Assembly (NCBI RefSeq): GCF_004118375.1
Contig: NZ_SDHX01000001.1
Coordinates: 1,181,693-1,245,692, forward strand
DNA: 64,000 nucleotides
Direction: 5' to 3'
Origin: Oleiharenicola lentus
GTDB taxonomy: Bacteria; Verrucomicrobiota; Verrucomicrobiia; Opitutales; Opitutaceae
In this document: positions 18,654 to 64,000 of the stretch, piece by piece
Position numbering within the stretch: the stretch's first letter is position 1
Layout: each line of letters begins with the position of its first letter
The notes under the pieces: generated by a model
Databases searched by the model: none
What the model was told of the DNA's origin: nothing
Seen by the model: only the letters and a program-made list of their open reading frames with translations
Program-made: the position numbers and the translations under genes

Positions 18654-18669
18654 GGCGCGGGGCGGCGGT

Positions 18670-35845: not shown

Positions 35846-35887
35846 GGCAAAGGCAGAAATGCCAGTCGTGCGCCGGTCAGTTTTGGT

Positions 35888-35952: not shown

Positions 35953-36010
35953 TGCGAACCCGAAAAATTCCGGCTTTGCGGACGGCGGTGAGATCACAAT
36001 ACTGCGCGAA

Positions 36011-40989: not shown

Positions 40990-40998
40990 GGATCCGGC

Positions 40999-45195: not shown

Positions 45196-48100
45196 TCATG
45201 CAATCCCGCCTGCGATTCGGCGGTTCCGCCAACAGGCAAAGGCACCGAGGGAGAAGGCGAGGGCGAGGACTGCCAGCGTGGCGTGGAGGCGGCTCTGGCT
45301 TTCGCGCTGGAGGCGCTGGGTCAGGTCCACGGCGAGATTCGGGCGGTCCGTGGGAATGGGCGGGGCGACGGCGATCCAAGCTTGGCCCTCGGTGCGGCCG
45401 TCGTAGAGCACCAGCCGGGCCAGCCGGCCGCGATGGGCGGTGACGTCCACCGTCCAGTAGGCGATGCCTTCCTGATTCGGGCCGGGACAGCTGATCTCCT
45501 CGCCCTGCCAGATGCCCTCGTGGTCGAGCAGGCGCAGGCGCAGGCCGTTGCCGTCGCCCGTCGGATAGCCGGCGAAGGGCACGACGAGCCAGGGCTGGCT
45601 GAGCGTGAAGGAGGAGCTCAAGATGGTGCCCGTCCAGCCCGGGCCCTCGGGGGCGGTTCCGTAGAAACGGTTGCGCAGTTCCGGCGGCGAGAGCGGGGCG
45701 GCACCCTGCAGCCGTTCGGGCGGCAGGGGTGAGTTAAACGTGAAGTCGTAGGTGATGTCCGTCAGCGCGGCGTCGCCGCCAAGCATCTGCGTCCAACGCG
45801 CCTCCCGGCTGAAGACGAGTGGGTTGCTCCAGAGGAACAGAGCGCCGGTGCAGGCCACGGCGCCGGCCAAGGCCACCCAGCCGGGCCAGCGGTCGGTGCC
45901 GGGCGCGAGCTGTGTCAGCGGTTGGTCGTGAGTCGGGCGCGCAAAGGTCAGGACCAGGCCCGCGCTCAGCAGCAGGCCGCCGCCGAGCAGCCACCAGGGC
46001 CAGCGCTCCTGCAGGCCGCGGTTGAGGCGGCCGAGTGCGGTGTCGCCGGCGGGGTTCACCGACGCGGGCAACAGCGCGCGGAAGTCCGCCCGGTCGAGCA
46101 GCGGGCGCACGAGTTCGGGGCTGTTGGTCAGCACCCAACGCGTTTCCTTCTGCTCCATCGGCTGGGGATCGCCGCGTTCGAGGTAGGCGCGGAGCGCCTC
46201 GCGCCGCACCTGGTTGCTCTGGGCGGCGGTCTGGTGGAAATACGCGGCGTGGCCCTCGGTGGCGTTTTGCCAGAGGCCTGCGACGAGCAGCGCACCCCAG
46301 AGCGTCGCGCCGGCCATGAAGGGCCAGCGCACGCGGCCGGGGGCGGGCACAAGGCGCGTGAGGGCGAGCGCACCGGCCAGCGCGCCGATGAACAACAGGT
46401 CGCCGTAGCGCGAGACATGGCCCTCGGTGCCGCCGCCGCGCGCCAGCGCCAGGCCCACGGCGTGGGCGAGATTCCAGAGCCCGAGGGAAAAGATGATGCG
46501 GTCGGCGGCGTTGGCATCGGACCGCCCGCGCAGGCGCAGCGCGTGCACGAGCCACGGCACCTGCAGGATGGCCGCGGCGCCGGGCAGGTTGCTCGGCCAG
46601 CCGAGTTGGAAGATCACGCCATGCAGCACGTCGAGCAGGCTGCGGGCTTCGTTGGCCGGACCGGCGCGGCCGCCGGCCTGCCAGTGGATGAGGCCGAACA
46701 TCGCGAGCCCGATTCCCGCCACCACGGCCGGGGCGACCAGGCGGCGGCGTTCCCGTTGGCCGGTCCATAGGATGGCGGCGACCACCGCCAGCGGCGCGGC
46801 CCACATGCTCGCGAGCGTGCCGAGTCCGGCCATGCCCATGCCCTGCGCGAACCACCAGCGGCGACTGCCGGGCTCCTGCGTGTGCGCGCCGTGCACGTGG
46901 ACAAAGAGGCAGAGCAGCGCCAACGGGAACTGCGACTGGAAGCCCCACGCGATGTTTTCCCAGGCGAAGGGCAGCGCGCCGCCGAGCAGCAGCACCGCGG
47001 AGACGAGGCCCGCGCCGCGCGCGGAGAAGGTCCGCCACGCCCAGCGGGCGACGAGCCCGATGAACAGCGAATGCAGCGCGGCGTTGAGCGTCATCTGCAC
47101 GAGCGGGTCCCAGCGGCCGGTGAACACGACCTGCAGCCAGCTCAGGAGGCGCGTCCACACCGGCAGGTGCTCGAAGTGCGGCGTGAAGAAGGTCCAGGGC
47201 CGCAGCGTTCCGTCGAGCCACGGGCCGATGATCTGCTGCGCCTCGATGATCCACTGGTCGTTGTAGGGGATGTCGGCGGCGTAGGTCGCGATTTCCCGCA
47301 GGCGCGCGGCGAAAACGAACACCATCACTCCCGTCGGCACGAGCCAGAGGCGGTGCGGGTTGGCCGCGACGGTTGTCGAAGCAACCGGCGTGTCGGCCGC
47401 AGCGGGTTGACGCCACGCGGCACAGGCGTCGGCCACGATGGCCGCGAGCGCGACAAGGTAGAGTGGGTAGGCGGAGGCCATCGCCGCCGGGCTCATGTTG
47501 AAGAAGGCCGTGACGTGCACGAGCACGTTGATGACGAGGTAGGCCGCGCAACCACCGAGCAGCGCGAGCGCCAGCCCGAGGCGGAAGGTGGGGCGGTGGT
47601 TGACGGCGGACTCGAGCGTGCGCACGAGGCCGACAAAGAGCACCAGCGGCCCAAGCCAGCCAAACAGACGGCCGATCAGCAGGCCGAAGGATTCGAGGCG
47701 TTCCACCTTGGCACGGGCGACTTCGGCCTGGGCCGGCGGGAGCGGATCGGGCGAGCGCGGCGCGTGGCTCAGGCGCATGTTCACGATGTCCCGGAACGGC
47801 TTGAGCTCGGCGTAATCGCCGACGCTGTCGGGCGCGCGGGCGGTGAAGCCCTTGAACTGGATAAAAAACGCGAGGTACTCGGCCGCGCCGTCGGCCAGCG
47901 GACCGACGTCCTTTTCGCTGAGCGGCGGCACGAAGCCCGAGCGACGCGGGCGGGCGGGCACCTTGCCGGCGTCGCAAGCGGCGTTGAGTTCGTCGGCGAT
48001 GCGCCGGTAGTGCCGCATCGCCGTGCCGGCATCGGGCGCGAGGCCGGCGGCGGCCATGGCGTCGCGGATCGCCCACACGAACCAGCCGCCGCGGATTTGG

Positions 48101-49056: not shown

Positions 49057-49075
49057 CGGGTGGCGGCGGGCCGGT

Positions 49076-51451
49076 TCACTTGAATTCGATGCCGGTCCAG
49101 CCGGTCCAGTCGAAGGCGTATTCGCCGTGCTCGCCCGGGTCGATGCGCATCACGACATGGCCGGTGCCCTTCGGCAGGCGGGCGGAGAAATGCTGGAGCC
49201 CGCGGTCGTTGAGGCGCGGCACCGGGTTGAGGTAGCGCTCGTGCAGGACCATGCGGTCGGAGCCGTCGGTCCAATACACGGTGAAGAGCGCGCCGTTGGT
49301 GTTGCCGCCCTTCGAGTAGGCGCCGGCGACGAAGCCGAAGTCGCCCTGGATCATCGTGGTGCCGGCGGGCACGGCGAAGATCATCTGGCTGGGCGCGTGC
49401 ATGATCATGACCGTGCGCGAGTCGATGAGGTCCTCGTTCGGCGGATTGTGCGCCTCGTAGGAGATCGGCGGCTCGGAGAACATGTGGAACTTGGCGCGGT
49501 CGGCGCTCTTGAAGTAGTCCTTGCCTGCGTCGGAGGGCGGCAGCGCGGACAAGCGCACGACAACCTCCTCCTGCAGGCAGTCGCGGTCCTGCGGCGCGGT
49601 CTCGACGCGGATGCGGGCGGCGCGGCGCGGGGGCTTGCCGCCGGCGGCGTGCATGTAGGAGAGCATGTCGTCCACCACGGGGCTGAGCATGAAGCCGCCG
49701 CGGCCGATGGGCTGGGGCAGGCGGTGGACGGACTCGACGCCGCGGTCGTCGGTGATGCGCAGGTTCACCAGCGGCGGACGGAAGAGGAAGCGGCGGAGCT
49801 TGCCGAGGAGGTTGAAGCGGTAGTCGATCTCGACCCACACGCCCTGGTCGGCGGCGAGGTCGGAGACGTCGAGGTCCGCGCCGATCGTCGTCGTTGCGGT
49901 GCGCAGGAGTTTGGGCTCGAAGGCCGCGGCGTCGAAGGCGCCCGGCTTGCGCTGCCAGAGGGTGAAGCCCTGTTCGGAGAACAGGTAGGTGTAGCGCTGC
50001 ACGAGCAGGCGCAGGACGTCGGGGTCGTCCATCATGGCGAGCCGGCCGTCGAGGGTCTGGAGCTTGAAGAGCACGAACTCCGGCGCGCGGTCCGAGGCGT
50101 AGTAGTCGTGGTTCAGACGCGACAGGTAGGGCGTGTAGGCGGAGTAGCCCTGGAAGACGGGGCGCGGCTGGTAGTTGAAGCCGTTGAACAGCGCGATGGC
50201 CTGCTCGAAGCCGAGCACGTCGAGCGAGGCGCGGCCGACGGTCTCCTTGACCTTGCGCAGGTCGTAGTTGTTGCGCTCGGCCTCCCACTTGCCGGCGTAA
50301 ACCTCGCGGCCGTGGTTCACGCCGAGGAAGAACCCGGCGTGGGTGTTGACGTTGTTCTGGGCGCCGCCCAGCGCGCCGCGCACGAGGCCGGGCAGCACGA
50401 GGTCGCAGCTGACGATCGCCAGGAGGCCGGCCGCGGCCAGCAGCGTGTGCTTGAGCCAGCGGAGCACCGGCGAGGGCTCGAGCACCAGGGGCGCGCTGAC
50501 GATCACGGTGAGCGCGGCGTAGAAGAAGCCGATCTGGTGGCCGTCGGCGCGGATGTAACCGTGTTTCCAGTTGAGGTAGAGCAGGGCCAGCGCCCCGAGC
50601 GTGAGGGCGCCGTTGCGCACGCGGTCGGCGCTCGTGAGGAAGTTCACGCCAAGGAAGGCCACGACCAGCGCCACGACACCCAGCCCGCGGTAGAGCTGGC
50701 CGGAGGGGCAGGAGAGGCCCATCGCGTCCTGGTAACCCTGGCTGATCTGCCAGGAGCTGATGAAGTAGGCGGGCAGGTTGAGCGGGTTCTGGCCGCAGGC
50801 GGCCCAGCCGGCGATGAAGAGCGCGAGGAACACGCCGGGCACGATCAGCCCGGTGGCGCGCCGGGTCTTCCAGAGCGCGAGCGCGCAGGCGACAAGCACG
50901 AGGAAGAAGCCGAGCAGGAGGTTGGTGAACTTGACCAGCGAGAGGACCACCAGCAGTGCAATCCACCCGAGGGAAGACCAGCGCCAGGACTCCTCGCTGC
51001 GGCGGATCAGTTCCCAGCCGGCGAAAGCCATGACCGTCTGGTGAATCGCGTCCTGGTAGGAGAGGCCGAACAGAAAGAAGAACAGGAAGAAAAACACCCG
51101 CGCGTATCCGGTCAGCCGGTAAGCGTGCCAGAAGACGACGGCGGAGAACACGATGGCCTGCACGATATGCCAGCCGACGAGGACGTTCCAGTTGGCGCCC
51201 CAGAAGGTCTTGCCCATCGCCCAGCCGAGCGGGCCGTAGGTGAACACGACTTCCCGGCCGAACTGGCGGCCCTCCATAAAAAATTTCCCGATCGCCATGC
51301 GCCAGGAGGAGTCGAGCTCCATGGCCGGGAAATAGGGCAGCGTGAAGGCGACCAGCACCATCGCGACGAAGCCGAGGCCCCGGAAGGTCCAGTCAAGGAG
51401 ACCCGGGCGGGCGGAGGGGGCGGACGCGGTTTCCATGGATTGAGGGGCCAT
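49076..51451 (-). CDS. GT-C-like membrane protein with C-terminal beta domain (family III, copy A)
   Basis: About 791 residues from ATG 51,451; the frame extends 59 codons upstream without a plausible protein. Loop MELDSSWRMAIGKFFMEGRQ, then VVFTYGPLGWAMGK. Strongly conserved with the next gene: FCGQNPLNLPAYFISSW-type (CGQNPL), SYQDAI/GYQDAMGLSCPSGQLY, WKHGYIRADGHQIGFFYAAL, RPVFQGYSAYTPYLSRLNHD, and FKLQTLDGRLAMMDDPDVLR. A soluble beta region forms the last 230 residues and ends WTGWTGIEFK. Large proteins with the FQGYSAYTP/DDP pattern occur in other bacteria as uncharacterised membrane proteins. Confidence 0.75.
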   Translation of the reverse strand: MAPQSMETASAPSARPGLLDWTFRGLGFVAMVLVAFTLPYFPAMELDSSWRMAIGKFFMEGRQFGREVVFTYGPLGWAMGKTFWGANWNVLVGWHIVQAIVFSAVVFWHAYRLTGYARVFFFLFFFLFGLSYQDAIHQTVMAFAGWELIRRSEESWRWSSLGWIALLVVLSLVKFTNLLLGFFLVLVACALALWKTRRATGLIVPGVFLALFIAGWAACGQNPLNLPAYFISSWQISQGYQDAMGLSCPSGQLYRGLGVVALVVAFLGVNFLTSADRVRNGALTLGALALLYLNWKHGYIRADGHQIGFFYAALTVIVSAPLVLEPSPVLRWLKHTLLAAAGLLAIVSCDLVLPGLVRGALGGAQNNVNTHAGFFLGVNHGREVYAGKWEAERNNYDLRKVKETVGRASLDVLGFEQAIALFNGFNYQPRPVFQGYSAYTPYLSRLNHDYYASDRAPEFVLFKLQTLDGRLAMMDDPDVLRLLVQRYTYLFSEQGFTLWQRKPGAFDAAAFEPKLLRTATTTIGADLDVSDLAADQGVWVEIDYRFNLLGKLRRFLFRPPLVNLRITDDRGVESVHRLPQPIGRGGFMLSPVVDDMLSYMHAAGGKPPRRAARIRVETAPQDRDCLQEEVVVRLSALPPSDAGKDYFKSADRAKFHMFSEPPISYEAHNPPNEDLIDSRTVMIMHAPSQMIFAVPAGTTMIQGDFGFVAGAYSKGGNTNGALFTVYWTDGSDRMVLHERYLNPVPRLNDRGLQHFSARLPKGTGHVVMRIDPGEHGEYAFDWTGWTGIEFK

Positions 51452-51476
51452 TCCTAGGTTCGGGGGCGGGGGGCGT

Positions 51477-53825
51477 CTAGTGGGAATTTTCGAGGCGCAG
51501 GTGGCGCCAGTAGGTCCAGTCGCTCGCGGAGTTGCCGGCCGGGCCGGGCCCGATGGCGAACTCCAGTTCGCCGGCCCCGGCAGGCAGCGGCACGGCAAAA
51601 TCCTGCGGACCGCGATCGGCCGGCTCATCGCGCGGGCGCAGCAGGCGGCGGAAGATCATTTCCGACCGGCCGTCCGCCGCGTGCCAGTGCACGAGGAATT
51701 CCGCGCCGTCCGAGGCGCCGGCGTTGGTCGCGGCGTAGGCTCCATCGTAGAGACCGAAGCTTCCGCGCAGGGTGGTGGCGCCGGCAGCGGCGCGGTAAAC
51801 GAGCGAGGAGGGCGCGTGGGCATAGTATTCCAGCCCGCCCTCCACCTGCGAGAGCTGGGCGCCAAACGGGGCGGTGCCCCGCACAAACTCCAACGGGAGC
51901 TCCGGCGACCCGAGCGACAGGGCGGCCCAGCCGGTGCCCGGCGCGGTCGTCGTGACCGAGATTTCCACGGCGACCTCCGGTTGGAAGCAGTCGCGGTCCT
52001 GCGGGGCGGGTTCGAGGACAAACGAAGCCACGCGCCGGCCGGGTTCGCCATTGGCTGCGCGGAGAAACTCGGAAATGTCGTGGACCAGCGGACTGAGCGG
52101 AAAACCCGTCGCGGCGATCGGCGCGGGCAGGCGGTGATCCGAGACGGCGCCGGTGGTGTCCGTCACCTTGAGCCGCATCATCGGCGGCTTGAGCAGCAGG
52201 CGGCGGACGCGCCCGAGCAGGTTGAGCCGGTAATCGATTCGCACCCACACAGAGCGGTCGCCCAGATCGGTGAGATCAACCGGTTCGCCGAGGCGGGCGG
52301 TCACGCTGCGCACGGGCGCGGGCGAAGCCGCCGGACCGGCGGGTGCCGCCTTGCGTTGCCAGAGCGTGAAGCCGCGCTCGGTGAAAAGATAGCGGTAGCG
52401 CTGCGGCAGCAGGTCGAGCACCAGCGGATCGTCCATGCTCGGCAGGCGGTCGTCCACCGTCTGCAGCTTGAACAGCACGAACTCCGGCGCGCGCTCCGAT
52501 TCGAAGTAATCACGGTTCAGGCGGGCGAGCCGGGGCGTGTAGGCGGAGTAGCCCTGGAAGACGGGGCGCGGCGCGTAGTTGAAACGGTTCAGCAGAAGGA
52601 CGTCCTGCTCATAGCCCAGCACGTCGATCGGCCGGTCGCCGACCACGCGGCGCACGAGCGGCAGCGGCACCTCCGCGCGCAGCGAGTCGAGGGTCCAGTC
52701 GTATTGCGCGCGCAGGGTGCGCGGCTCAAGCAGGAGCGAGGCCTGGCGTTGCAGACGGTCCTTCAGCGTCGCGAGCGTGGCGGGGGCGACTCCGGGTGTG
52801 GCCAGTTCCGCGCCGCGCAGGGCGAGCAGCGCCGTCGCGACCAGCAGCAGCCGGCGCGGCCAGGGCCAGCGGAGGGCGTCGCCGGGCAGGTGCAGCGGGC
52901 TCACGACCACCGCGAGCGCCGCGAAGTAGAACACCAGCTGGTGGCCGTCGGCGCGGATGAAGCCGTGTTTCCAGCTCAGGAAAAGATAGGCCGCCGCGCC
53001 GGCGGCAAGCGCCCACCCGCGCCCGCGGTCGCGGTCGGCCAGCGCGCGCAGCCCGAGGAGCCCGACGAGGAGCGCCGCCGTCGCGAGGCCGTGGTAAAGC
53101 TGCACGCTCGGGCAGGACCAACCCATCGCATCCTGATAGCCGCTGCTGATCTCCCACGAGTGCCACAGGTAAGCCGGCAGATGGAGCGGGTTCTGCCCGC
53201 AGAACAGCCAGCCCGCGAGGAACAGGCCAGCCCACCACGCCGGCCCCTTCGCCGCGGCCCGCCAGTCGCGCCGGGCCAGCGGAGCGGCGGAGGCCAGCGC
53301 GACCAGCGCGACGGCCAGCACGAGGTTGGTGAACTTCACGAGCGACAGCAGCGCCAGCAGGGCGAGCAGCGCGACCGAGGAGCGCTGCCACGGTCCGGCG
53401 GAGCGGCGGATCAGTTCCCAGCCGGCCAGCGCGATCGCGGCCTGCTGCAGGATGTCCTCATGCCGCACGCCGAGGGTGAGGAAGAACAGCAGAAAGCCGA
53501 CCCGGTGAAGCGGCGGCAGTCGGAAGGCCTGCCAGGTGAGCAGCGCGGCCAGGATGAGCGCGAGGCCCGCGTGCCACGCGACGAGCGCGCCCCATTGCGC
53601 GCCCCAATACATGTTGCCCATGGTCCAGCCGAGGGGGCCGTAGGTGAACACGACCTCCGTGCCGAAGGCGCGGTCGTCGGCGAACACGCGGCCCAGCGCC
53701 ATCTGCCACGCCGAGTCGAGACCGAGCGACGGCATGGCCGGCAGGATGAAAGCACCCGCCGCCAGGGCGGCGAAGCACAGCGCGCGAAGCACCCGGTTGG
53801 CAGTGAGGCTGGAGGCGGCGGACAT
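51477..53825 (-). CDS. GT-C-like membrane protein with C-terminal beta domain (family III, copy B)
   Basis: 782 residues. Loop LGLDSAWQMALGRVFADDRA, then VVFTYGPLGWTMGNMYWGAQ; GQNPLHLPAYLWHSWEISSG; GYQDAMGWSCPSVQLYHGLA; WKHGFIRADGHQLVFYFAAL. RPVFQGYSAYTPRLARLNRD and FKLQTVDDRLPSMDDPLVLD follow. The C-terminal domain ends SASDWTYWRHLRLENSH. A tandem paralogue of the product of 49,076-51,451, about half identical by eye. 14 bases separate it from the upstream gene. Confidence 0.75.
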   Translation of the reverse strand: MSAASSLTANRVLRALCFAALAAGAFILPAMPSLGLDSAWQMALGRVFADDRAFGTEVVFTYGPLGWTMGNMYWGAQWGALVAWHAGLALILAALLTWQAFRLPPLHRVGFLLFFLTLGVRHEDILQQAAIALAGWELIRRSAGPWQRSSVALLALLALLSLVKFTNLVLAVALVALASAAPLARRDWRAAAKGPAWWAGLFLAGWLFCGQNPLHLPAYLWHSWEISSGYQDAMGWSCPSVQLYHGLATAALLVGLLGLRALADRDRGRGWALAAGAAAYLFLSWKHGFIRADGHQLVFYFAALAVVVSPLHLPGDALRWPWPRRLLLVATALLALRGAELATPGVAPATLATLKDRLQRQASLLLEPRTLRAQYDWTLDSLRAEVPLPLVRRVVGDRPIDVLGYEQDVLLLNRFNYAPRPVFQGYSAYTPRLARLNRDYFESERAPEFVLFKLQTVDDRLPSMDDPLVLDLLPQRYRYLFTERGFTLWQRKAAPAGPAASPAPVRSVTARLGEPVDLTDLGDRSVWVRIDYRLNLLGRVRRLLLKPPMMRLKVTDTTGAVSDHRLPAPIAATGFPLSPLVHDISEFLRAANGEPGRRVASFVLEPAPQDRDCFQPEVAVEISVTTTAPGTGWAALSLGSPELPLEFVRGTAPFGAQLSQVEGGLEYYAHAPSSLVYRAAAGATTLRGSFGLYDGAYAATNAGASDGAEFLVHWHAADGRSEMIFRRLLRPRDEPADRGPQDFAVPLPAGAGELEFAIGPGPAGNSASDWTYWRHLRLENSH

Positions 53826-53839
53826 GCGGGCGGGGCGGG

Positions 53840-55936
53840 TCAGCGGGAGTATTCCAGCAGGAGGTCGCTCCAGTAGGTCCAGTCGCTGGCGGTGTTCTCG
53901 TAGGGGCCAGCGGTGATCACCAGTTCCAACTCGCCGCCCTGGTGCGGCGGGAGCGCGACGCGGAAACCATGCACCCTGCGGTCGGCGGGCTCATCGCGGG
54001 GGCGCAGCAGATGCCGGAAGAGGATCTCCTCCTTGCCGCCGTCGGGGCGCCAGCGCACAAGGAATTCCGCGCCGTCGGTCGGGCCCTTGTTCTCGGGGGC
54101 ATAGGCGCCGGGCCGGATGCCGAACCCGCCGCGCAGAAAGGCCGCGTTCGCGGGCACACGGTAGGTGATGGTCGAGGGCGCGTGGGCGAAGAATTCCAAA
54201 TGCCGGTCCACCATGGTCACGTCGGCGCCGTGGCGGGCGCTCGCGCGCACGGGCACCAGCGGCGAGCCCAGGGTGCCGAGGGTGAACTGGTCGGTAACCG
54301 CCGGTGGCAGAAGCGGGAACGCCTCCTCCGGCACGATCTCCCCCGGTTCCTTGCGCTGAAAAAGCCGGAAGCCCTGCGGCAGGAAGTAGTGCGATTCCAC
54401 CTGCTTGTAGCCGGCGCGGATGAAGGCGTGCAGCGGCGGGAATTTCTCCAGCGGATACTTCGACCAGAAACGGTTGGGGCCCGCGCTGCAGTCCACGATG
54501 AAGAGCGGACGACTCGCGGCGAGGTCGCGCAACAGCGTGTCCATCGCGCCCGGCACGATGGCGTAGCTCGTATCGACGCCCGGAGCACCGTTGGTCCAAG
54601 GCACGAGGCCGGTGAGGAACGAGGCGTAGAGGAACCGGCTCGCGGGCAGGCGATCGGCCAGGAGGTAGATGTCCGGGTGGTAGCCCCACACGAAGATGCG
54701 GTCGGCGGCGTTGCTGTGTTCGCGGATGTGGTTCGACACGCGCATCGAAGGATCCACGGGAACGACGCGGTTGGGCCGGCGCGCGCTCAGGGCAAGCACC
54801 GCGGTGTGGTAGGTGACGAGCGCGAGCAGCAAAGCCGCGGCGACGCGCAACCAGCGACTGCGTGCCGACCCCAGCCAACCCGGCAGCAGTGCGAGGGCGA
54901 GGCCGGCGCCGAGGGAAAAAGGGGCGAGGAACTGGATGTGGTAATGCTGGAAATCACGCCCGCCCGCCGCCGCCCCGGCAAGGGCGACGAGCGACCAGAC
55001 CGCCACGAACAGCAAGCCCGGGTTCGTCGCCTGTTCCGCGGGTTCGGGGCGGCGTTGCAGCACGCGGTGCAGAACAAACCCCGCGCCCGCAAACCACAGC
55101 GCCAGCAACCCGGGTTGGGCCGCGCCGAGCAGACGGAACGGCAGCAGCGCGCTCATCACTCGGTCGGCGAGCGTGGTTTCCGGTCCGTAGAACCGCAGGT
55201 TGTAGATCCAGGTGTAGAAAATCGCGTCACCAAGCGCGCCGCGCGCCGCCAGGTAGCCGGCGGTCAGCAGCACCGGCGCCAGCCAGCCGCCGATGAGGGT
55301 GAGCAGCGTCAGCGCCAGCCGGCGGGGCGGCCGGTTCGCCCGCCAGCCGAGGTAAAGCAGGGTGGCAAAGGGCGCGGCCGCGTCGAGCAGCGCGGGTTGT
55401 TTGGACAGGAACGCGCACCCGAACAGCGCGCCGGTCAGAAAAATCTGCCGCGCCGACGGCTTCGTGCCGCCGAGCAGCAACACCGCGGCGCCCGCACTGG
55501 TGAAGAACGCCACGAACCACTCCGTGTTGGCGGCGTTGGCGTCGCCCGCGTAGAGCATCGCGGTGGTCAGCAGCACAAACAAAGCGGCCGCGGCGATGCC
55601 GGCGAATCCGCCGCGCAGCGTACGGCCGGCGAGAAACAGCAGCCAGCCGGTGCCGGCGATCAGCAGCGCGATGGCGCAGCGCACGGCCCAGAGGTTGTTC
55701 TCGCCGAAAATCGCAAAGACGCCCGCCACGGCGTAATAGCTGAGCGGCGTGCGCTGGTCGATGGCGTCGCGGTAGAGCACGCCGCCGTCGAGGATCGCGC
55801 GCGCGGCGGTGGCGTGGATCGCTTCGTCGAGATTCCAGAGCCCGAAGCTGAAGGCCGGCCACCGCAGCCAGAGCGTGCCCGCCGTGATCAGCAGCAGCAC
55901 GAGGAGCGAAGTGGTCCGGGGCGGCAGGAAACGCAT
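53840..55936 (-). CDS. GT-C (PMT/ArnT-like) glycosyltransferase with C-terminal beta domain
   Basis: 698 residues. Acidic loop FGLWNLDEAIHATAARAILD (D-E motif), then DAIDQRTPLSYYAVAGVF (typical of dolichol-P-mannose-type transferases). About twelve membrane segments; the soluble C-terminal region (about 590-698) has TDGAEFLVRWRPDGGKEEIL, LFRHLLRPRDEPADRRV and NTASDWTYWSDLLLEYSR, as in the products of 51,477 and, more weakly, 49,076. It lies 6 bases from the gene upstream. Confidence 0.78.
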   Translation of the reverse strand: MRFLPPRTTSLLVLLLITAGTLWLRWPAFSFGLWNLDEAIHATAARAILDGGVLYRDAIDQRTPLSYYAVAGVFAIFGENNLWAVRCAIALLIAGTGWLLFLAGRTLRGGFAGIAAAALFVLLTTAMLYAGDANAANTEWFVAFFTSAGAAVLLLGGTKPSARQIFLTGALFGCAFLSKQPALLDAAAPFATLLYLGWRANRPPRRLALTLLTLIGGWLAPVLLTAGYLAARGALGDAIFYTWIYNLRFYGPETTLADRVMSALLPFRLLGAAQPGLLALWFAGAGFVLHRVLQRRPEPAEQATNPGLLFVAVWSLVALAGAAAGGRDFQHYHIQFLAPFSLGAGLALALLPGWLGSARSRWLRVAAALLLALVTYHTAVLALSARRPNRVVPVDPSMRVSNHIREHSNAADRIFVWGYHPDIYLLADRLPASRFLYASFLTGLVPWTNGAPGVDTSYAIVPGAMDTLLRDLAASRPLFIVDCSAGPNRFWSKYPLEKFPPLHAFIRAGYKQVESHYFLPQGFRLFQRKEPGEIVPEEAFPLLPPAVTDQFTLGTLGSPLVPVRASARHGADVTMVDRHLEFFAHAPSTITYRVPANAAFLRGGFGIRPGAYAPENKGPTDGAEFLVRWRPDGGKEEILFRHLLRPRDEPADRRVHGFRVALPPHQGGELELVITAGPYENTASDWTYWSDLLLEYSR

Positions 55937-55942
55937 GGCGGA

Positions 55943-57976
55943 TTACCGGAGCTCGGGATCGGACCAGAACGTCCAGTCCTTGGCCGTGTTGCCGTTGGAA
56001 TGCGTGAGGAACGACAGCCAGGCATCGGTCGGATGGCGGCGGTCGGGCAGGGTGACGGAAAGCTGTTGCAGGCCGCGATCCGCGGCTTGGGCCACGGGGT
56101 CGAGCGAGCGGGACAGCAGCCGCGTCCGCTCGCGGCCGTCGGTGAGCCACACCTCAAAGGTCGCACCGTTGGTCGCGTAGGGTTGTTCCCGGGCGCCGTC
56201 GGGGATGCCGTAGGCCACGTCCAGCGTGCGGACGCCGGGCGGCAGCGGGGCGACGAGGATGCCCGGAGCGTGCACGAGCCGCATGGGCCGGCCGAGGGCG
56301 TTCTGCGGATTCGACGGCATCAGCGCGGCGATGCGGTAACCGTCCCGATCCTGCCGCAGCACCTGTTTGCGCCGGTAAACAATGAAGTGGGCGTCGAACT
56401 CGAGCAGGGACCGGCCGGGCACGTCGAGCTGTGCGACGTCGGCGCTGCGGTTGAACTCGCGCACGCGTTCATAGGCGGATGCGACGAGTTCGCCGGAGAT
56501 GCGCTCGAGCTGCCCGTCGCTGGTGGCGCGGAGCACGAGCCAGTCGGGCTGGAGATAAAGAATGAGATGGGCCCAGGGCGTGCCGACGAGCCGGCAGGCA
56601 TCCGTGACCTCGCGGGAGGACAGGCCCGGCCAGTCGTAGGTTTTCAGACCGGAGAAGAAGCCGATGTAGCCGAGCGGCTCCATGAACACGGTGTCCGAGG
56701 GTTTCGCATTGGCGCGGAGCCACTCGCCGATTTCGCGCCGCGTGCCGTCCTCGATGAGGGTTTGCTGCGCCCGCATCTGGCGCGCCGTGCCGACCGTCAT
56801 GAAGAGTCCGACGGCCAGCAGCAGGACGCCCACTGCGCCCGTGACCCAGCGGCCGACCGCCCCGCCCGCGGTCCAGAGCTGGCCGAGCACGCTCGCGAGC
56901 GCGACGAAGGCGAGCAGGCCCACCGGCGGCAGGTACCAGGGGAACGGGAAGTAGGGGACGAAGGACAGGTAGGCCGCGGCGAAGAAGAAGGCGAGCGACG
57001 CGACCCGCGCCTCGGGGCGCACTTTCGGCAGCAGCCAGATCACGCTGGCGAGCGTCGCGAGCACGCGGCCGAACGGCCACAGCCAGGCGGGCCAGGCGGG
57101 AAACATGTGGTAGGACGGCAGGAACACGCCCAGCGCCGCGGTGTCGCCCGACCAGATTTTCCACGGCAACTGCCAGAAGTTTTCCCGGAAACGCGTCCAG
57201 GCGAGGAGCCCGCCGCTTTGCGCGCCCTTGGCCACGATGGTGTGCGGCACGGGCGAACCGTAATACCACCAGGCCCACAGCAGCCACGGAGCGTAGAGCG
57301 CGGTGGTGAGCAGCCCGGCCTTGAGGAAGACGAGCAGTTGTGCCCGGCGGTCGCCGCCGGTGCGGGCGGGGTCGTTGAAGATCCAGCAGCCCGCGGCCAC
57401 GAGCCCGATGTAGATGAAACTGTCGGGCCGGGTCCACATGAGGCCCGCCCACGCGCCGCCGAGGTGCAGCCACTGGCGCGGGCCGGGCGTGAAATGCGCC
57501 CGCAGCGCGAGACCGAGGAACAGCAGCATGAACGCCGTCTCCATGCCGTTGATCGTGAAGTCCAGCATCTTGGCGTCGGTGGCCAGCAACAGCGCGAGCA
57601 GGGCGGCGGCCACCCCGGGCCAGGCCAGCCGGCGGGCGAGCCCGACGAGCACGGCGGCCGCGCCGCCCAGCGCGGCGATGCACATGAAACGGAAAATCCA
57701 CAGCGCGGCCGCATCGGAGCTGTTGCCCGTGAGCAGGCTCGCCACCGCCGGCAGCAGCACGCCGAGCGGCGAGGTGAAGGTGTGCAGGCGGTCGCCGTGG
57801 TTGAAGACCAAGCCGTGCCCCGTCGCCAGGTTTTTGCTGGAACGGTAGGTGATGTAGTAGTCCTCCCACGCGTGCTGCGTGAACAGCGCGAAGACCAGGG
57901 CGGCGAGGGCGACCGTGAGGAAGGAGAGGAGGCGGGGCCTCGGGCTGGCGAACAGGCTGGGCATGAAGACGGCCAA
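55943..57976 (-). CDS. GT-C-type arabinosyl/mannosyltransferase-like protein with C-terminal beta domain
   Basis: 677 residues. The loop motif AWEDYYITYRSSKNLATGHG then VFNHGDRLHTFTSPLG matches the EDxYIT(x)RY-xxNLA-G-G-VFN-G-R-TSPL pattern of a GT-C family that includes AftB-like arabinofuranosyltransferases. The last 110 residues form the C-terminal beta domain (TNGATFEVWLTDGRERTRLL, ADRGLQQLSVTLPD, NTAKDWTFWSDPELR). First gene of the operon; M at residue 5 (57,964) is an alternative start. Function: extracytoplasmic glycosyl transfer. Confidence 0.8.
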   Translation of the reverse strand: MAVFMPSLFASPRPRLLSFLTVALAALVFALFTQHAWEDYYITYRSSKNLATGHGLVFNHGDRLHTFTSPLGVLLPAVASLLTGNSSDAAALWIFRFMCIAALGGAAAVLVGLARRLAWPGVAAALLALLLATDAKMLDFTINGMETAFMLLFLGLALRAHFTPGPRQWLHLGGAWAGLMWTRPDSFIYIGLVAAGCWIFNDPARTGGDRRAQLLVFLKAGLLTTALYAPWLLWAWWYYGSPVPHTIVAKGAQSGGLLAWTRFRENFWQLPWKIWSGDTAALGVFLPSYHMFPAWPAWLWPFGRVLATLASVIWLLPKVRPEARVASLAFFFAAAYLSFVPYFPFPWYLPPVGLLAFVALASVLGQLWTAGGAVGRWVTGAVGVLLLAVGLFMTVGTARQMRAQQTLIEDGTRREIGEWLRANAKPSDTVFMEPLGYIGFFSGLKTYDWPGLSSREVTDACRLVGTPWAHLILYLQPDWLVLRATSDGQLERISGELVASAYERVREFNRSADVAQLDVPGRSLLEFDAHFIVYRRKQVLRQDRDGYRIAALMPSNPQNALGRPMRLVHAPGILVAPLPPGVRTLDVAYGIPDGAREQPYATNGATFEVWLTDGRERTRLLSRSLDPVAQAADRGLQQLSVTLPDRRHPTDAWLSFLTHSNGNTAKDWTFWSDPELR

Positions 57977-58137
57977 CGAAAGGCGGCCCGCCGCCGGCTG
58001 TCAGCATGAAAGCGGGTCACGGGGTGCGCGATGCGGCCGCGGTTTCGCCATGACCGGCGGGCGACCGCACCCCGCCATCGGGACAACGCGAGCCGGGATA
58101 TTCAGAACGCGCTTGCCCGTCCGGCGGAGGGCGTTGT
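57977..58137. promoter_or_regulatory. Divergent promoter region between the two GT-C gene sets
   Basis: About 160 bases lie between the minus-strand five-gene operon start and the plus-strand tandem pair. No repeat or recognisable -35/-10 pair was seen; position alone implies two promoters. Confidence 0.35.
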
Positions 58138-60627
58138 TTGCTCGCGCCTCTGACACCGGCGAGCCCCAGTTCCAAAACCAGACCGTCATGGGCCGCGTGG
58201 GCCGTGGTGGGGCTGTTCGCGGTGCTGGCGCTGGCGCCGTGGTGGCGCAACCACACGCACCTGCGCAGTTTCTTTGACTACGGTCTGGCGATGGCCGGCG
58301 CGGGCCGCATCGAGGCGGGGCAGAAACCCTACGTCGATTTTATCACGCCGGCGCAGGCCGGTTGGTATTTTCTCAACTGGGCGTCGGAGAAGGTCGGTGG
58401 CGGCACGTTTCAGGCGATGACCCTCGGCGGGGCCGCGAGCATCCTGATTTCCTACGCGGTCCTGCTCGGCATGCTGGCCCGGCGCTGGTCGCTCCCCGCC
58501 GCGGCGGTCATGGCGGGTGGGTTGGTGTGCGCGACGGTGTCACAGCACACGCTGTGGTGGTACAACCCGTGGGGCGTGATCTGCCTGACCGTGGTCGCGT
58601 GGGCGGGCGCGGTCGCGCCGGTGTTGCGGCGCGAGCACCTCGGCTGGCACCTGCTCGCGCTGGCGGGCCTGTTTTTCGGCGGCATCAACAAGATCAACAT
58701 GCAACTCATGGCCGTGGCGCTGGCCCTGGCCTGGGCGGTGCGCGCCGGGCTCAATGGCCGCGCGTCGGCCGGTCGCGTGTTGCTGACCGTCCTGTTTTAC
58801 CTCGGGGCCCTGGCCCTGCCCGTGCTCGCGGAGATGGCCTGGACCGGCGCGTCGTTCGCCACCTGGTGGCACAACGTGATCACGCTGCCCGCGTCGAGCC
58901 GCAGCGGCATGGCGCTGGAGGCGTTTTCCCCGAAATACCTCCTCACGCCGTTCAACGACCATTACTACGGCCTGCTGTTGAAACCGGTTGGTCTCATCGG
59001 CCTGGTGCTGACCGTGCAAACCGTTGGGCAGATCCTGATCCACACCTGGCGCGAGGCCGGGTGGTGGGAACGGATCCTGCCCGTGGTCTGCGGCCTCGTG
59101 GCCTACGCCGGCGGCGTGGTGCTGCTCGCCACCAACATGGACATCGCCTACACCGGCATCGGCGGCTGGCTTGCGCTGCTGGTGGCGCTGTGGCTCGGCT
59201 TCGGGCTGCCGGCGCAGGGACGCTGGTTCAACGCCGTGATGCTCGCATCGGCGCTGGGCATCGGGGCGGTCGCGTGGCATTCGGCGTGGATCGGACAGCG
59301 TTCTCAGTTCGGCCACTCCGGCAGCCCGCGGGCGGCCTATGTGGACGCCGGAAGCGCCGGCCCCGACTTCGGTTATTTTCGCGGCACCTTCATGCCGCCC
59401 GAGACGGTCGAGTCGCTGCGGGAGCTGGGGGCCTGGCGGGCCGCGCTGCCGGCCGAGCGCCGCGCGGGGCACTTCTACGGTCCCGGCACGGAATGGGCCG
59501 CGCACCTCTGGCCGGCGATGGCGACGCCGGGTCTGCCGATCTCCGTCTATCGTCAGCCGGGCAACAGCGATGGTCGCGCCGAGTCGGCCCGGTTGGCGCA
59601 GCTGCTCGGTGACGGCACCATCCGGGAAATCACGGTGTCCCGGGTGCTCGATTACTGGGAACAGCGGCAGCTGCCGCTGCTGACGCACCGTTTCGACAAG
59701 CTGCCGCTGGGCGAGATATTTTCCGTTTACAGCGCGAACGTCGCCGACGGCGTGTCGGGTTCGCCCATCTGGTTCACGCGGGTCTTCGGCGGCAACGCGG
59801 ACTCGCGTCAGCTCGTGTCGGCCGGGCGGTTTGCGGGGAAAAACGAGTGGAACCAGTTCATCGCGTTCGGCGAGGGCCGGGGCACGATGCTGCTCAAGGC
59901 GCAGAGCAACCGCCTGCAGGGCGAGGTGGTCGTGCGCCGGGCGGACGGGGCGCCGCCCCGGGCCGCGGCGGCGGAATTCGCGATCTACGCGCAGGCGAAT
60001 CCCGAGGCGCGGTTCGAGCGCTGGCGCCAGCGCGTGGAGCTGCCGGCCGGCGAGGAGGAAATCCGCGTGCCCTACGCGATCGACAGCAGCGGCATGGCGG
60101 CGTTCTTCACCGTGGATGTTCCAGACGAGGCCAAGGGCGTGATCCTCGCGGGCTGGCGCGGGCCGCAGCTGCTGCACACGTTCAATGCCGGACCCGAGAA
60201 CCCGGAGTGGCTTTATCCGGGCCGGACGCCGGGCACGCCGCTGGATGAGCCGACGCTGGCGAAGCTGCTGCCCGGGAGTTGGCGCCCGGCGAAGGCCTTC
60301 ATGCGCAACGGCCGGGTGACGGACCAGGGCGTCGAACTGCTCCCCGGCGGCGAACTCTGGCTGAAGGTGGAGGGCTTTGTGACGGAGTTTTCCGGGCAGG
60401 CCCTGGTGGAGGCGTGGGACCCGGCGCATATCCCGTTCGTGCGGGGCATGTGGTATCGCGGCGGCCGCCTGGAGGTGTTCACGCAAATGATCGCGCGGGA
60501 CGGCGACCGGAAGGCGGACTTCAAGATGTGGTGCGCGGAACCGGGCGGCTGGCTGATTCTCTCCGTTGATCCGCTGCTGAAGGCGACCCCGGTGCGCGTG
60601 CTGGTATACAAGGCCACGCAGGGCTGA
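58138..60627 (+). CDS. GT-C-like membrane protein, tandem paralogue 1
   Basis: 829 residues from a TTG start (no ATG fits the frame before the first membrane segment). Loop LRSFFDYGLAMAGAGRIEAG, then KPYVDFITPAQAGWYFLNWA and LGWHLLALAGLFFGGINKIN. Two beta-rich soluble regions follow the membrane part (about 530-829), with LQGEVVVRRADG and, near the end, LVEAWDPAHIPFVRGMWYRG and RLEVFTQMIARDGD. It is clearly related to the next gene (YVDF...QAG, HLLALAG-x-x-GG-NK-N). Its sugar is unknown. Confidence 0.72.
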   Translation: MLAPLTPASPSSKTRPSWAAWAVVGLFAVLALAPWWRNHTHLRSFFDYGLAMAGAGRIEAGQKPYVDFITPAQAGWYFLNWASEKVGGGTFQAMTLGGAASILISYAVLLGMLARRWSLPAAAVMAGGLVCATVSQHTLWWYNPWGVICLTVVAWAGAVAPVLRREHLGWHLLALAGLFFGGINKINMQLMAVALALAWAVRAGLNGRASAGRVLLTVLFYLGALALPVLAEMAWTGASFATWWHNVITLPASSRSGMALEAFSPKYLLTPFNDHYYGLLLKPVGLIGLVLTVQTVGQILIHTWREAGWWERILPVVCGLVAYAGGVVLLATNMDIAYTGIGGWLALLVALWLGFGLPAQGRWFNAVMLASALGIGAVAWHSAWIGQRSQFGHSGSPRAAYVDAGSAGPDFGYFRGTFMPPETVESLRELGAWRAALPAERRAGHFYGPGTEWAAHLWPAMATPGLPISVYRQPGNSDGRAESARLAQLLGDGTIREITVSRVLDYWEQRQLPLLTHRFDKLPLGEIFSVYSANVADGVSGSPIWFTRVFGGNADSRQLVSAGRFAGKNEWNQFIAFGEGRGTMLLKAQSNRLQGEVVVRRADGAPPRAAAAEFAIYAQANPEARFERWRQRVELPAGEEEIRVPYAIDSSGMAAFFTVDVPDEAKGVILAGWRGPQLLHTFNAGPENPEWLYPGRTPGTPLDEPTLAKLLPGSWRPAKAFMRNGRVTDQGVELLPGGELWLKVEGFVTEFSGQALVEAWDPAHIPFVRGMWYRGGRLEVFTQMIARDGDRKADFKMWCAEPGGWLILSVDPLLKATPVRVLVYKATQG

Positions 60628-60736
60628 GCCGCGTGGAAGCGAGCCTTGGGCCGTCGGGTGCCGCCTACTGCGGGTGTGTCACTCCGGCAAGAGGGCTTGC
60701 CCCCACCGGCAGGTCCCGCCCAATTTTCGCCCACGC

Positions 60737-63205
60737 ATGACCGATCCCCGTCACCGACTCCCGCCCGTCTTCTGGTGCCTGCTCGCGGTCGTGACCTTGG
60801 TTGCGCTGCTGCCCTGGTGGCGGAACCACGGTTACCTGCGCGATCTCTACGACTACGGCTTGGTTATCACCGCCAACGGCCTGATGGAGCGCGGGGAGCG
60901 GCCGTATGTGGATTTCACCACTTCAATTCAGGCGGGTTTTCTCGGGCTGAACTGGCTGGTGGAAAAGATCGGCGGCGGCACCTACGCGGCGCTGGCGCGC
61001 GGCGGAGCGGGGCTGATTCTCGCGAGCGGGTTGCTGCTGCCCCTCATGCTCGTGCGGCGCTGGTCCGGGTGGGCGGCCGCGGCCGTGGGCGGGGTCGTCA
61101 CGATGGGTGCGGCCGCGCAGCACACGATCCTGTGGCACAACACGCTGGGCGTGTTCACGCTCGCGCTGGTCGCGTGGGCGACCGCGGTGGCGCCCGTGCT
61201 GCGCAAGGCGGACTGGCCCTGGCATCTGCTCGCGCTGGCCGGGCTGGTGCTCGGCGGCGTGAACAAGCTCAACTTTCATCTCGTCGCGCTTGCCGTGGCC
61301 CTCGCCTGGGCGCTGCGGGCCGGCCTGACCGGCCGGGCGGGCGCGGGGCGGGTGGCGGTGACGGTGCTCGGCCTGGTTGTTGCGGGCGTGGTGCTGCCGC
61401 TGACGGTTGAACTCGCGTGGACCGGAGCCTCGTTCGAATTGTGGCGCAGCAATGTCATCGGGCTCGCCGCGGGTTCACGTTTCGCGCTGTTGGAGCGCAT
61501 CGCGTCACGGGAGTTCCTGTTCGCGCCGCTGCACGACTACTACGGCAAACTCGTTTTGCCACAGGTGGGGCTGGCGGGCCTGGTGCTGACGCTGGCCACC
61601 TTCGCCGGCTGCTGGCGCGGCGCGACGTCGTCCCGGCCGGGGATCGACCGCGTCCTGCTGGGGCTGGCGGTGCTCGGCGCGGCGGCTGCGGGCGCGGCCC
61701 TGCTCGCGACGAATTTCGAGATCGCGTGGGTGGGCGTGGCGGCGTGGCTGGCCCTGCTCGTGAGCGTGTGGCTGGGCTTTCAGCCGGAGCCGCCGGGCCG
61801 CGTTTTCACTGTGGGGTTTGTCCTGCCGGCCGTCGTGCTGGGCGCGGCGGCATGGTGGTCGGCCTGGGCGGGGCAGCGCTCGCAGTTCGGCTACTCCGCG
61901 GAACCGCGGAGCGCCTACCGGCCCGCGGCGGAGACGGAGACGGCTTGCGCGGCGCTGCGGGGCCTGCGGGTGCCGCCGGATGTTTTTCTCAGCCTGCAGG
62001 CCGTGGGCCGCGAGCTGGCCGGTTACGAGGAAGGCAACGCGCGGCCGGTGTTCTACGGCCCGGGTTTGGAGCTGCTCGAACGGTTCTACCCGAGCGCGCG
62101 CGAAAAGGGTCAGCCGCTCTGGGCGCACTGGGACACGACCTACAACGAGGCGTCGGTCGGCCGGCTGCGCGAGGGTTTCCTTTACTCGGAGACACGCCGG
62201 GCGGCGTTCACGACCATCGCCTTCGCCCACTGGCCCGAGGCCTTGCGCACGGTGTTGGACGAGCATTTCGTGCGCGATCAGGTTGGACCGGTCGTGGCGC
62301 GGTGGCGCCGGCAGGAGGATGTGCCGGACCGGCAGGTGGACAGTTTTGCGACCCTGGGCAAACTGGGCGGCAACGTGGACGGCCGCGTCCTGCATTTCGA
62401 CCGCCGGCCCCTGCGGGCCACGCCCACGGGCAGCGGCACCCACCTTCTCGGCACCGTGGGCGAGGCGGGCCAGGTGCTCTTGCGCGTGCCCATATTCCGC
62501 CTGCGCGGTGTGGCGATGGTGCGGCGCATGCCCGGGCGGGAATCCGGCCTGCTCCAGGCGCATTTCAAGGTGATCGTGCACGGGGCCGTGCCGGAGGATG
62601 TGCGCTGGTCACAGGCGATTGAGCTGCCGGCCGGGCAGGACGAAGTGAAGGTGCCCTTCGAGGTGGATGGCTCGGGAAAGCAGCTCCTGCTCTGGGTCAT
62701 GCAGCCGGGCGGACAACAGCGGGCCCTGCTCGCCGGTTACCGCGACCTTGAGATCACGCACGCGGGCGAGGTGCCGGGTGCGCCGCATCTGCGGCCCTAC
62801 CAGTCGCCCGAGGCGGCGCCGGAGCCGGCGTTGGGCGCGAGTCTTTTCGGCGACATCGCCTGGCGTCCCGCCGAGCTGGTGGTGCGGAACGGCCGCCCGG
62901 CCGGTGACGGCCTCGAACTGTTGCCCGGTGGCGAGGTCTGGCTGCACACCGCCGGCATGGTCGGTGAATTCCACGGACGCGTGACCTGTGCCGAGTCGGA
63001 GGGACGGCCCTCGGTGGCGCGGGTCGTGTGGTATAAGGGCGGTCGCCTGCAAATCCTCCAGCAGGAGCAGTTGAGCCGCGAGCGACCCTTTGAGTTCCGG
63101 GCCTGGACCGCCGAGCCGGGCGGTTGGATCGGTGTACTCGTGGACGTCGGCGAGGGGCTGGCCCCGGCACGCGTGCGGGTGACCCGCAGCTCGCTGCAAC
63201 CCTGA
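60737..63205 (+). CDS. GT-C-like membrane protein, tandem paralogue 2
   Basis: 822 residues from ATG 60,737 (the frame is open for 21 more codons upstream). Loop LRDLYDYGLVITANGLMERG, then RPYVDFTTSIQAGFLGLNWL; WHLLALAGLVLGGVNKLNFH; then about twelve membrane segments. The soluble C-terminal part has FHGRVTCAESEGRPSVARVV, WYKGGRLQILQQEQLSRERP and FRAWTAEPGGWIGVLVDVG. Tandem with the gene before it (about 110-base gap). Confidence 0.72.
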   Translation: MTDPRHRLPPVFWCLLAVVTLVALLPWWRNHGYLRDLYDYGLVITANGLMERGERPYVDFTTSIQAGFLGLNWLVEKIGGGTYAALARGGAGLILASGLLLPLMLVRRWSGWAAAAVGGVVTMGAAAQHTILWHNTLGVFTLALVAWATAVAPVLRKADWPWHLLALAGLVLGGVNKLNFHLVALAVALAWALRAGLTGRAGAGRVAVTVLGLVVAGVVLPLTVELAWTGASFELWRSNVIGLAAGSRFALLERIASREFLFAPLHDYYGKLVLPQVGLAGLVLTLATFAGCWRGATSSRPGIDRVLLGLAVLGAAAAGAALLATNFEIAWVGVAAWLALLVSVWLGFQPEPPGRVFTVGFVLPAVVLGAAAWWSAWAGQRSQFGYSAEPRSAYRPAAETETACAALRGLRVPPDVFLSLQAVGRELAGYEEGNARPVFYGPGLELLERFYPSAREKGQPLWAHWDTTYNEASVGRLREGFLYSETRRAAFTTIAFAHWPEALRTVLDEHFVRDQVGPVVARWRRQEDVPDRQVDSFATLGKLGGNVDGRVLHFDRRPLRATPTGSGTHLLGTVGEAGQVLLRVPIFRLRGVAMVRRMPGRESGLLQAHFKVIVHGAVPEDVRWSQAIELPAGQDEVKVPFEVDGSGKQLLLWVMQPGGQQRALLAGYRDLEITHAGEVPGAPHLRPYQSPEAAPEPALGASLFGDIAWRPAELVVRNGRPAGDGLELLPGGEVWLHTAGMVGEFHGRVTCAESEGRPSVARVVWYKGGRLQILQQEQLSRERPFEFRAWTAEPGGWIGVLVDVGEGLAPARVRVTRSSLQP

Positions 63206-63212: not shown

Positions 63213-64000
63213 TCAGGTGTGCGCCAGCCAGGCCTCGCGGGCGAGGTCCACGTGGAAGGGCAGGACCTTGTGATGGTCGTAGAGGCGCAACGCCTTCGAA
63301 TAGGCGGTGGGCGTCAGCGATTTGCCGCTGCGTTCCTTGGCGAGGCAGGTCCACATCATGCGCGAGAGGCCGAGGTGGTCGCCGGGCTTCACGAGGTAGC
63401 CCTGCTGGCGCTGGCCGATCATCTCGGCGATGCCATGGACGTCGGTCGTGACGATCGGCGTGCGGAACGCCATCGCCTCCATCACCACGCGCGGGAACGA
63501 CTCCTCGTAGCTCGTGCAGACGAACTGGTCGGCCGCCACGAAGAAGTCGAAGACCTCGCGCGTCTCGGGGATGAGCGTGACGTTGGGCAGCTCAAGGCGG
63601 GCGAGGTCGCGCTTGAGCAGGTCGAGGTAGATACCCGGACGGGCGCCGACCATGACGAAGCGGAATTTCCCGCGGTGGCCCTGCCGGTTGAAATGCTCGA
63701 TGGCGCGCAGGAAGACGTGCTGGCCCTTGCGCTCGCAGACGGTGCCGATGTTGGCGATGATCGTCTCGTCGTCGGCGAAGCCGTGTTTGCGCCGCATCGC
63801 CGCGCGGGTGTGCGTGGCGCGGAACGTGTCGATGTCGTCGAGGTTGATCCAGCTCGGCACGAGGCGGAAGTTGCCGCTGACGTTGTGGTCCTCGTAGTAG
63901 GCGCGCGTGGCCTGGCAGAGGAACAGTGCGCGGGTGGCGCGGTGGAAGGCCTCGGCCACGAGCCGGTGCAGGTCGAGCTCCAGCTTGCGCTCGAAGAACC
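63213..64000 (-). CDS. GT4 glycosyltransferase, C-terminal part (cut by window edge)
   Basis: The frame stays open to the right edge (FFERKLELDLHRLVAEAFHR precedes TRALFLCQATRAYY), so the start lies outside. GT-B fold, second domain: DDETIIANIGTVCERKGQHV, FVMVGARPGIYLDL, then FVCTSYEESFPRVVMEAMAF and PIVTTDVHGIAEMIGQ, the E-x7-E donor-binding region of GT4 enzymes. It probably transfers an activated nucleotide sugar in the cytosol, serving the same surface glycan as the neighbours. Convergent with the GT-C tandem, 7 bases apart. Confidence 0.88.
   Translation of the reverse strand, partial: FFERKLELDLHRLVAEAFHRATRALFLCQATRAYYEDHNVSGNFRLVPSWINLDDIDTFRATHTRAAMRRKHGFADDETIIANIGTVCERKGQHVFLRAIEHFNRQGHRGKFRFVMVGARPGIYLDLLKRDLARLELPNVTLIPETREVFDFFVAADQFVCTSYEESFPRVVMEAMAFRTPIVTTDVHGIAEMIGQRQQGYLVKPGDHLGLSRMMWTCLAKERSGKSLTPTAYSKALRLYDHHKVLPFHVDLAREAWLAHT

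Follow-up and report, generated by a model that had tools for sequence, protein, structure and literature searches.

A conserved array of GT-C-like membrane proteins in Oleiharenicola lentus, four of them ending in an NPCBM/CBM51-like domain

In the 64 000 nt of Oleiharenicola lentus DNA analysed here (the window; from a genome of 4.71 Mb in two contigs), seven long frames at positions 45196-63205, G1 to G7, form an array that is real, conserved and mostly unnamed in the family libraries searched. Four of the predicted proteins, G2 to G5, carry at the C-terminus a common domain of about 130 residues, which is a divergent relative of the NPCBM/CBM51 type and is referred to below as NPCBM/CBM51-like. 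The locus probably builds a periplasmic, and likely a surface, glycan from lipid-linked sugars, and the tail would hold the acceptor chain.

The array and its neighbouring genes

The genes of the array, the shared domains and the adjacent genes of the conserved set, which extends past 45196-63205 to the genes at 31617-36262 and to genes right of 63205, are as follows.

31617-34625 (-), GT-C-like protein of the G1n type, 1002 aa, overlapping the GT2 gene by 4 bases; 438 bits with the HMM of the G1 first half
34622-36262 (-), GT2 glycosyltransferase (GT2), polyprenyl-phosphate-sugar synthase-like; PF00535, 83 bits; about four C-terminal hydrophobic stretches
45196-49056 (-), G1, 1286 aa, two fused GT-C-like units, a beta-rich tail and a final hydrophobic stretch; without the shared domain
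49076-51628 (-), G2, scaffold A with the shared domain
49076-49471 (-), shared NPCBM/CBM51-like domain of G2, from profile and BLAST comparison
51477-53825 (-), G3, scaffold A with the shared domain; predicted structure, pLDDT 90.9
51489-51896 (-), shared domain of G3, from profile and BLAST comparison
53840-55936 (-), G4, scaffold B (PMT_2) with the shared domain; PF13231, 37.2 bits, cut-off 26.1
53843-54271 (-), shared domain of G4, modelled alone, pLDDT 94.9
55943-57976 (-), G5, scaffold C with the shared domain
55946-56353 (-), shared domain of G5, from profile and BLAST comparison
58138-60627 (+), G6, scaffold G67 with a different tail of about 300 residues; 39 % identical to G7
60674-63205 (+), G7, scaffold G67 with a tail of the same kind as G6
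63213-63998 (-), C-terminal part of a 1306 aa GT2/GT4 protein that starts outside the window (906-4826 of L008); PF00534, 94 bits

As given in a preliminary description of this DNA, all seven frames have many hydrophobic stretches, and five minus-strand genes are followed by two divergent plus-strand genes. The gaps of 6 to 25 bases described there also fit, with 19 bases between G1 and G2, 14 between G3 and G4 and 6 between G4 and G5. Read from its first ATG (51628), G2 overlaps G3; the inner ATGs at 51451 and 51436 lie 25 and 40 bases away, and one of these two is probably the true start. The initial 140 or so residues of the GT2 frame may be non-coding. G2 and G3 are paralogous over their full length, as are G6 and G7, and the second half of G1, including its tail, is found as a stand-alone gene in other loci. 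Among G1 to G7, the curated Pfam cut-offs were passed by G4 only (PMT_2), and none of the seven exceeded a curated NCBIfam cut-off.

Several other genes in or near the window were noted. A 199 aa frame beside the array (43845-44441, +) has a weak DUF805 match (21.4 bits, cut-off 25.7). Further left are a HEAT-repeat protein with an F5/8 type C domain (16293-18722, -), a protein with a 3-keto-disaccharide hydrolase domain (26604-27713, +) and a partly hydrophobic 566 aa frame with an early acidic NPDEAQ stretch (28224-29924, -), which has no Pfam or NCBIfam match and looks like a further GT-C, one that lacks the shared domain. To the right of the window, in the same genome, several large GT4 and GT2/GT4 proteins (906-9815 of L008, 4229-16940 of L010) have in common about 300 N-terminal residues without a Pfam name. 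A profile of this region matched 16 of the 46 loci described below, and the region is a possible cytosolic equivalent of the tail.

The shared C-terminal domain

The preliminary description had credited all seven proteins with C-terminal beta domains and proposed a profile comparison to decide whether one was shared. The tails of G2 to G5 are homologous, with G2 the weaker version as first suspected; the tails of G3 and G4 are 54 % identical (BLAST, E 2e-39), and the remaining pairs are G2-G5 (E 9e-15), G2-G4 (E 1e-13), G4-G5 (E 1e-8) and G3-G5 (E 6e-8). A single domain on all seven proteins is ruled out, as the G1 tail and the G6/G7 tail reach only 1.9 % and 2.4 %, respectively, in hhalign, and these three proteins have other tails. 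The same domain is found on three proteins encoded outside the window, N1 and N2 (10034-12160 and 12219-14303 of L008) and N3 (6615-8705 of L010). Across G2-G5 and N1-N3 the local matches range from E 2e-39 to 3e-5, with no BLAST match at E<=0.001 for the pairs G2-N1 and G5-N1. A profile built from these seven copies recovered eight places in the genome, four in the window and four elsewhere, the eighth being on a GT-C-like frame with the same scaffold as N1-N3 (scaffold D). A chance likeness of short motifs is thus ruled out by the BLAST E-values and the genome profile matches. As five of the 13 PMT_2 matches in the genome bear the domain, it marks a subset of GT-Cs.

An alignment of 146 copies has 16 positions with at least 80 % conservation, including (G4 copy numbering) HAP at 28-30, G49, G65, F68, P89, D95-R96 and D128-W129. 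Further stretches of the domain are conserved inside one scaffold and unlike between scaffolds. This pattern would suit one fold with scaffold-specific ligands equally well as a single common ligand, and individual copies may differ in the sugar they bind or may bind no sugar at all.

Relationship to NPCBM/CBM51

Among 105 copies of the domain compared with Pfam, 33 match NPCBM (PF08305) at E<=1, the best at 3.8e-5, and any other family is matched by at most two; the G4 copy has no Pfam match. The window proteins have no NPCBM match at E<=1 and fall under the curated cut-off of 23.9 bits, and a search of the whole genome with PF08305 gave no match at E<=0.001. One copy from a relative (G016:C202) clears the cut-off with 24.7 bits.

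A Foldseek search with the AlphaFold model of the G4 domain (pLDDT 94.9), a comparison with carbohydrate-binding modules that the preliminary description had suggested, returned 8pvs first (E 1.2e-5), followed by 7jrl, 2vnr and 7jrm, a GH43 xylosidase in fifth place, 2vng and 2ygl, and then CBM6 chains. The six entries other than the xylosidase and the CBM6 chains have E-values of 1.2e-5 to 1.6e-4 and TMq values of 0.54-0.68, and the domain has the CBM51 beta-sandwich fold. Five of them (7jrl, 2vnr, 7jrm, 2vng and 2ygl) are titled CBM51, and 8pvs, 7jrl and 7jrm are also matched in sequence by a verrucomicrobial NPCBM domain. When a profile of 153 copies was aligned with one of 32 NPCBM domains from the phylum, hhalign gave 97.1 % (E 5e-11, 96 columns), against 0.2 % for the G1 tail, 1.5 % for the G6/G7 tail, 0.1 % for scaffold A and 0.2 % for scaffold B. 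The NPCBM set was taken from 33 of the 41 loci L105-L145, after exclusion of seven partial or own-type matches and of L139, a near copy of another; L143, whose frame could not be read through, was then dropped, leaving 32.

With a thin set of four NPCBM sequences, however, hhalign gave 0.4 %, and searches of the PDB with two sequence profiles of the domain returned no CBM51 (no hits with one profile and 13 at E<=10 with the other). The best of these 13, a designed trefoil (E 0.026), is regarded as a chance match. Because of these results, and because the window copies miss the Pfam cut-off, we use the name NPCBM/CBM51-like and do not file the domain as a family member. It has the fold and distant sequence homology in common with the NPCBM/CBM51 domains of glycoside hydrolases and peptidases. 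The known hosts, judged from the structure titles and PMC3267712, are enzymes that degrade glycans or glycoproteins, whereas the host here is a GT-C-like protein; the ligands named in that paper are galactose and blood-group A/B glycans.

The membrane parts

G1 to G7 look like GT-C sugar transferases, which would use polyprenyl-linked donors. For G3 the assignment comes from the model (pLDDT 90.9), which gave 11 Foldseek matches at E<=0.001. Five are GT-C chains, namely 7bvc_B, 7bvf_A and 7bvf_B (EmbA/EmbB), 6w98_A (AftD) and 5f15 (ArnT); the others are one CBM51 (2ygm_B) and five unrelated chains, and AftA (8if8) stands at rank 17 in the list. The TM-scores are low (0.10-0.32) because the query is multidomain. 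A full-length G3 profile had no match among PDB sequences at E<=1, and so none to a GT-C. G4 is assigned by its PMT_2 match, which it shares with N1-N3. G5, G6 and G7 are connected to GT-Cs only via profile links, and G1 has no such link. In hhalign, scaffold B is linked to D (96 %), to G67 (82 %) and to C (76 %, 132 columns), and the values for A-B and A-C are 9 % and 3 %; no pairing that involves scaffold A or either half of G1 reaches 20 %.

The acidic residue after the first membrane helix, which the preliminary description had pointed out, is invariant in the homologues of all six array families. It is present in 59/59 sequences for scaffold A (G2/G3), 26/26 for scaffold B (G4; those of 27 rows with a letter there), 20/20 for scaffold C (G5), 25/25 and 22/22 for the first and second halves of G1, and 9/9 for G6/G7. 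In scaffold D, outside the window, this position is Glu in 11 of 13.

Distribution and gene order

An HMM of the domain, a search likewise proposed at the outset, matched 23 of 57 relatives, comprising 19 of the 21 genomes of the genus (own genome included), four of 16 from other genera of the family and none of 20 from elsewhere in the order. Across the phylum, a sample of 387 genomes contained 24 with a match, 15 from the same family, one from the same class and eight weakly, and at least 20 of the sampled genomes of the family have no match. The same-class match outside the family is a scaffold A protein with the domain. The eight weak matches lie outside the class, in large frames (E 8.6e-6 to 5.2e-10), and three of these proteins match nothing in Pfam at E<=0.01.

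Scaffold A was also used to scan named genomes, and 46 loci were found, 42 of them from Verrucomicrobiota by title or genus name. Close-relative loci come from MAGs titled Opitutaceae, Lacunisphaera, Oleiharenicola, Cephaloticoccus and similar. The domain is present in 42 of the 46, including a full match in a planctomycetal locus (L084) and a partial one in Syntrophaceae (L087). Of the four without it, L073 and L086 run into a contig end, and L091 and L092 (Geobacter, Geobacteraceae) have the scaffold but not the domain (6273-8354 and 9839-11812, respectively). The last two suggest that the domain is an add-on to the scaffold.

The array recurs in other genomes, and conservation beyond the strain was the other check that the preliminary description had named. 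The recurrent order is C-B-A-(A)-G1-GT2-G1n. For the 46 loci and the window, recognised genes separated by under 300 bases were taken as neighbours; all loci had been picked by scaffold A, and many are cut by contig ends. On this count B is immediately before A in 22/47, C before B in 9/47, and A immediately before the G1 second-half part in 22/47 (12 as a separate gene and 10 as a fusion). GT2 was found in 21 of the 46 loci, with a G1n gene alongside in 16. In the window, genes for a TonB receptor, a FecR protein and an ECF sigma factor (37540-42644, -) lie between G1 and the GT2/G1n pair and interrupt this otherwise conserved order; in one relative (G003) the G1 and GT2/G1n parts are about 6 kb apart.

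In the 46 loci, the window, L008 and L010 together there are 124 domain-bearing frames. GT-C-like frames make up 120 of these (56 with scaffold A, 30 with B, 20 with C and 14 with D); three others are short (221-388 aa) and without a hydrophobic stretch, and one has about eight stretches. The domain occurs once in 98 frames, twice in 17 and three times in nine, and the last copy ends no more than 15 residues from the frame end in 119 of the 124. Three tandem copies are seen, for example, in B-type GT-Cs of about 1100 residues (L054 4807-8070, L062 1031-4327 and L063 462-3833, all +). B-type genes in L056 (2527-5889), L057 (61-3329) and L059 (416-3637) are split into two or three pieces in different frames, and are either broken or affected by sequencing errors.

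Domain copies group by scaffold, with six changes for A against 43.7 after shuffling, one for D against 12.6, and eight when the last copies of all scaffolds are considered, so the pairings of domain and scaffold are old. The scaffolds of G2 and G3 are 51 % identical and their domains 35 %, compared with 55 % for the domains of G3 and G4. In a tree of 146 domains the G3 type (three rows) joins 20 B domains (SH-aLRT 99); in a tree of 65 A and B domains, a single clade of all A domains is not rejected by the AU test (p 0.336). These results are no more than suggestive of an exchange of the domain between G4 and G3.

The donor synthase and a proposed pathway

GT-C enzymes require a donor maker, a polyprenyl-phosphate-sugar synthase. 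The GT2 protein looks like a member of this wider group, its closest solved relatives in the PDB being ArnC (E 5e-10) and dolichol-phosphate mannose synthase (E 2e-9). Its match to the NCBIfam model for AglJ (139 bits) is below the cut-off of 325, and it is therefore not AglJ itself. In this wider sense it is GtrB-like, as is the synthase of the three-component GtrABC system; the GtrA flippase (PF04138) had no match in the genome at E<=0.001, in a search whose control was positive in 7 of 14 genomes.

We infer the following pathway. GT2 would load a sugar onto polyprenyl phosphate, as expected from its family, and a flippase would bring the loaded lipid to the periplasmic face. There each of G1 to G7, and the 31617-34625 protein as well, would take a sugar from these lipid donors and add it to the acceptor chain as it grows, the invariant acidic residue that follows helix 1 being a candidate active-site residue. 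The C-terminal module of G2 to G5, presumably on the periplasmic side, would grip the acceptor chain, a role suggested by the precedent of the carbohydrate-binding modules (CBMs) of EmbC, AftD and ORF12 (PMC11127046). The multi-step glycan pathway envisaged in the preliminary description thus agrees with the GT-C character, the CBM-like common tail and the conserved order with GT2; its shared recognition domain applies to only four of the seven proteins.

A more specific reading is that remotely related or unrelated GT-Cs of one operon bear the same grafted module as a common address, which directs them to one growing chain, and that the module increases in number (as many as three on one protein) and may be exchanged between adjacent genes. 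We hold this only tentatively, and rather doubt it, since the conservation suits scaffold-specific ligands as well as one ligand.

It is unlikely, though worth weighing, that the array glycosylates secreted or outer-membrane proteins and not a polysaccharide, the tail recognising the first protein-bound sugar or the protein itself. PMT_2, matched by G4 and scaffold D, is named after protein mannosyltransferases, and GT2 resembles AglJ of archaeal N-glycosylation. However, PMT_2 is a broad model with 13 matches in this genome, and at least seven GT-Cs with several adjacent GT4 proteins exceed the needs of a single sugar, although an oligosaccharide on proteins is still compatible with them. Somewhat less probable again is a tail that binds no sugar and acts as a structural or docking domain, joining the GT-Cs in a complex or fixing them in the periplasm. 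A single domain type on four scaffolds, always terminal and with few strongly conserved positions, would fit such a role; the recognised relatives of the tail are nevertheless CBMs, and one GT-C CBM has been shown to bind the acceptor (PMC11127046). As a source of the shared tail, ordinary tandem duplication of one GT-C gene, with nothing modular, is very improbable; the full-length paralogues G2/G3 and G6/G7 speak for it, but the G3, G4 and G5 scaffolds are at most remotely related while their tails are plainly homologous, and G1, G6 and G7 are without the domain.

Comparison with known systems

The glycan-building pathway preferred here has partial counterparts, and the preliminary remark that no described system of this kind was known is overstated, because GT-C enzymes with acceptor-binding CBMs (EmbC, AftD and GT136) are published (PMC11127046). 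The mycobacterial arabinosyltransferases EmbA/B/C and AftD combine a GT-C membrane part with a C-terminal CBM-like domain, as in the array, and the EmbC and AftD CBMs interact with the acceptor (reviewed in PMC11127046). The PDB search, in contrast, gave no sequence relation to them, and the array module is NPCBM/CBM51-like and on four scaffolds, three of them in one operon. The GT136 ribosyltransferase ORF12 of Citrobacter youngae is also a GT-C with a C-terminal CBM and uses a polyprenyl-phosphate sugar donor; the CBM binds the unmodified acceptor polysaccharide and was dispensable under the conditions tested. ORF12 differs in being a single GT-C for one sugar, with a CBM described as immunoglobulin-like and a donor from another kind of synthase (PMC11127046).

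Systems that pair ArnT/PMT_2 GT-Cs with synthases of the ArnC, AglJ or DPMS type have in common with the array the PMT_2 match of G4, the ArnT match of G3, and ArnC and DPMS as the nearest relatives of GT2; the array lies outside those equivalogs and contains many GT-Cs. A search of mostly open-access literature returned no paper dealing with the array or with GT-C enzymes that carry NPCBM/CBM51.

The principle of a GT-C with a CBM is therefore already known, and the new point is that a single type of CBM is attached to four enzyme scaffolds and that three of these scaffolds occur together in an operon. The CBM51 structures found belong to enzymes that degrade glycans or glycoproteins; in the array, a related module terminates several different GT-C-like proteins encoded side by side. 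The array gives a first hint of function for GT-C-like families that have no Pfam or NCBIfam name, and it opens to experiment the otherwise difficult question of how sugar transferases that act one after another in the periplasm locate a common acceptor chain.
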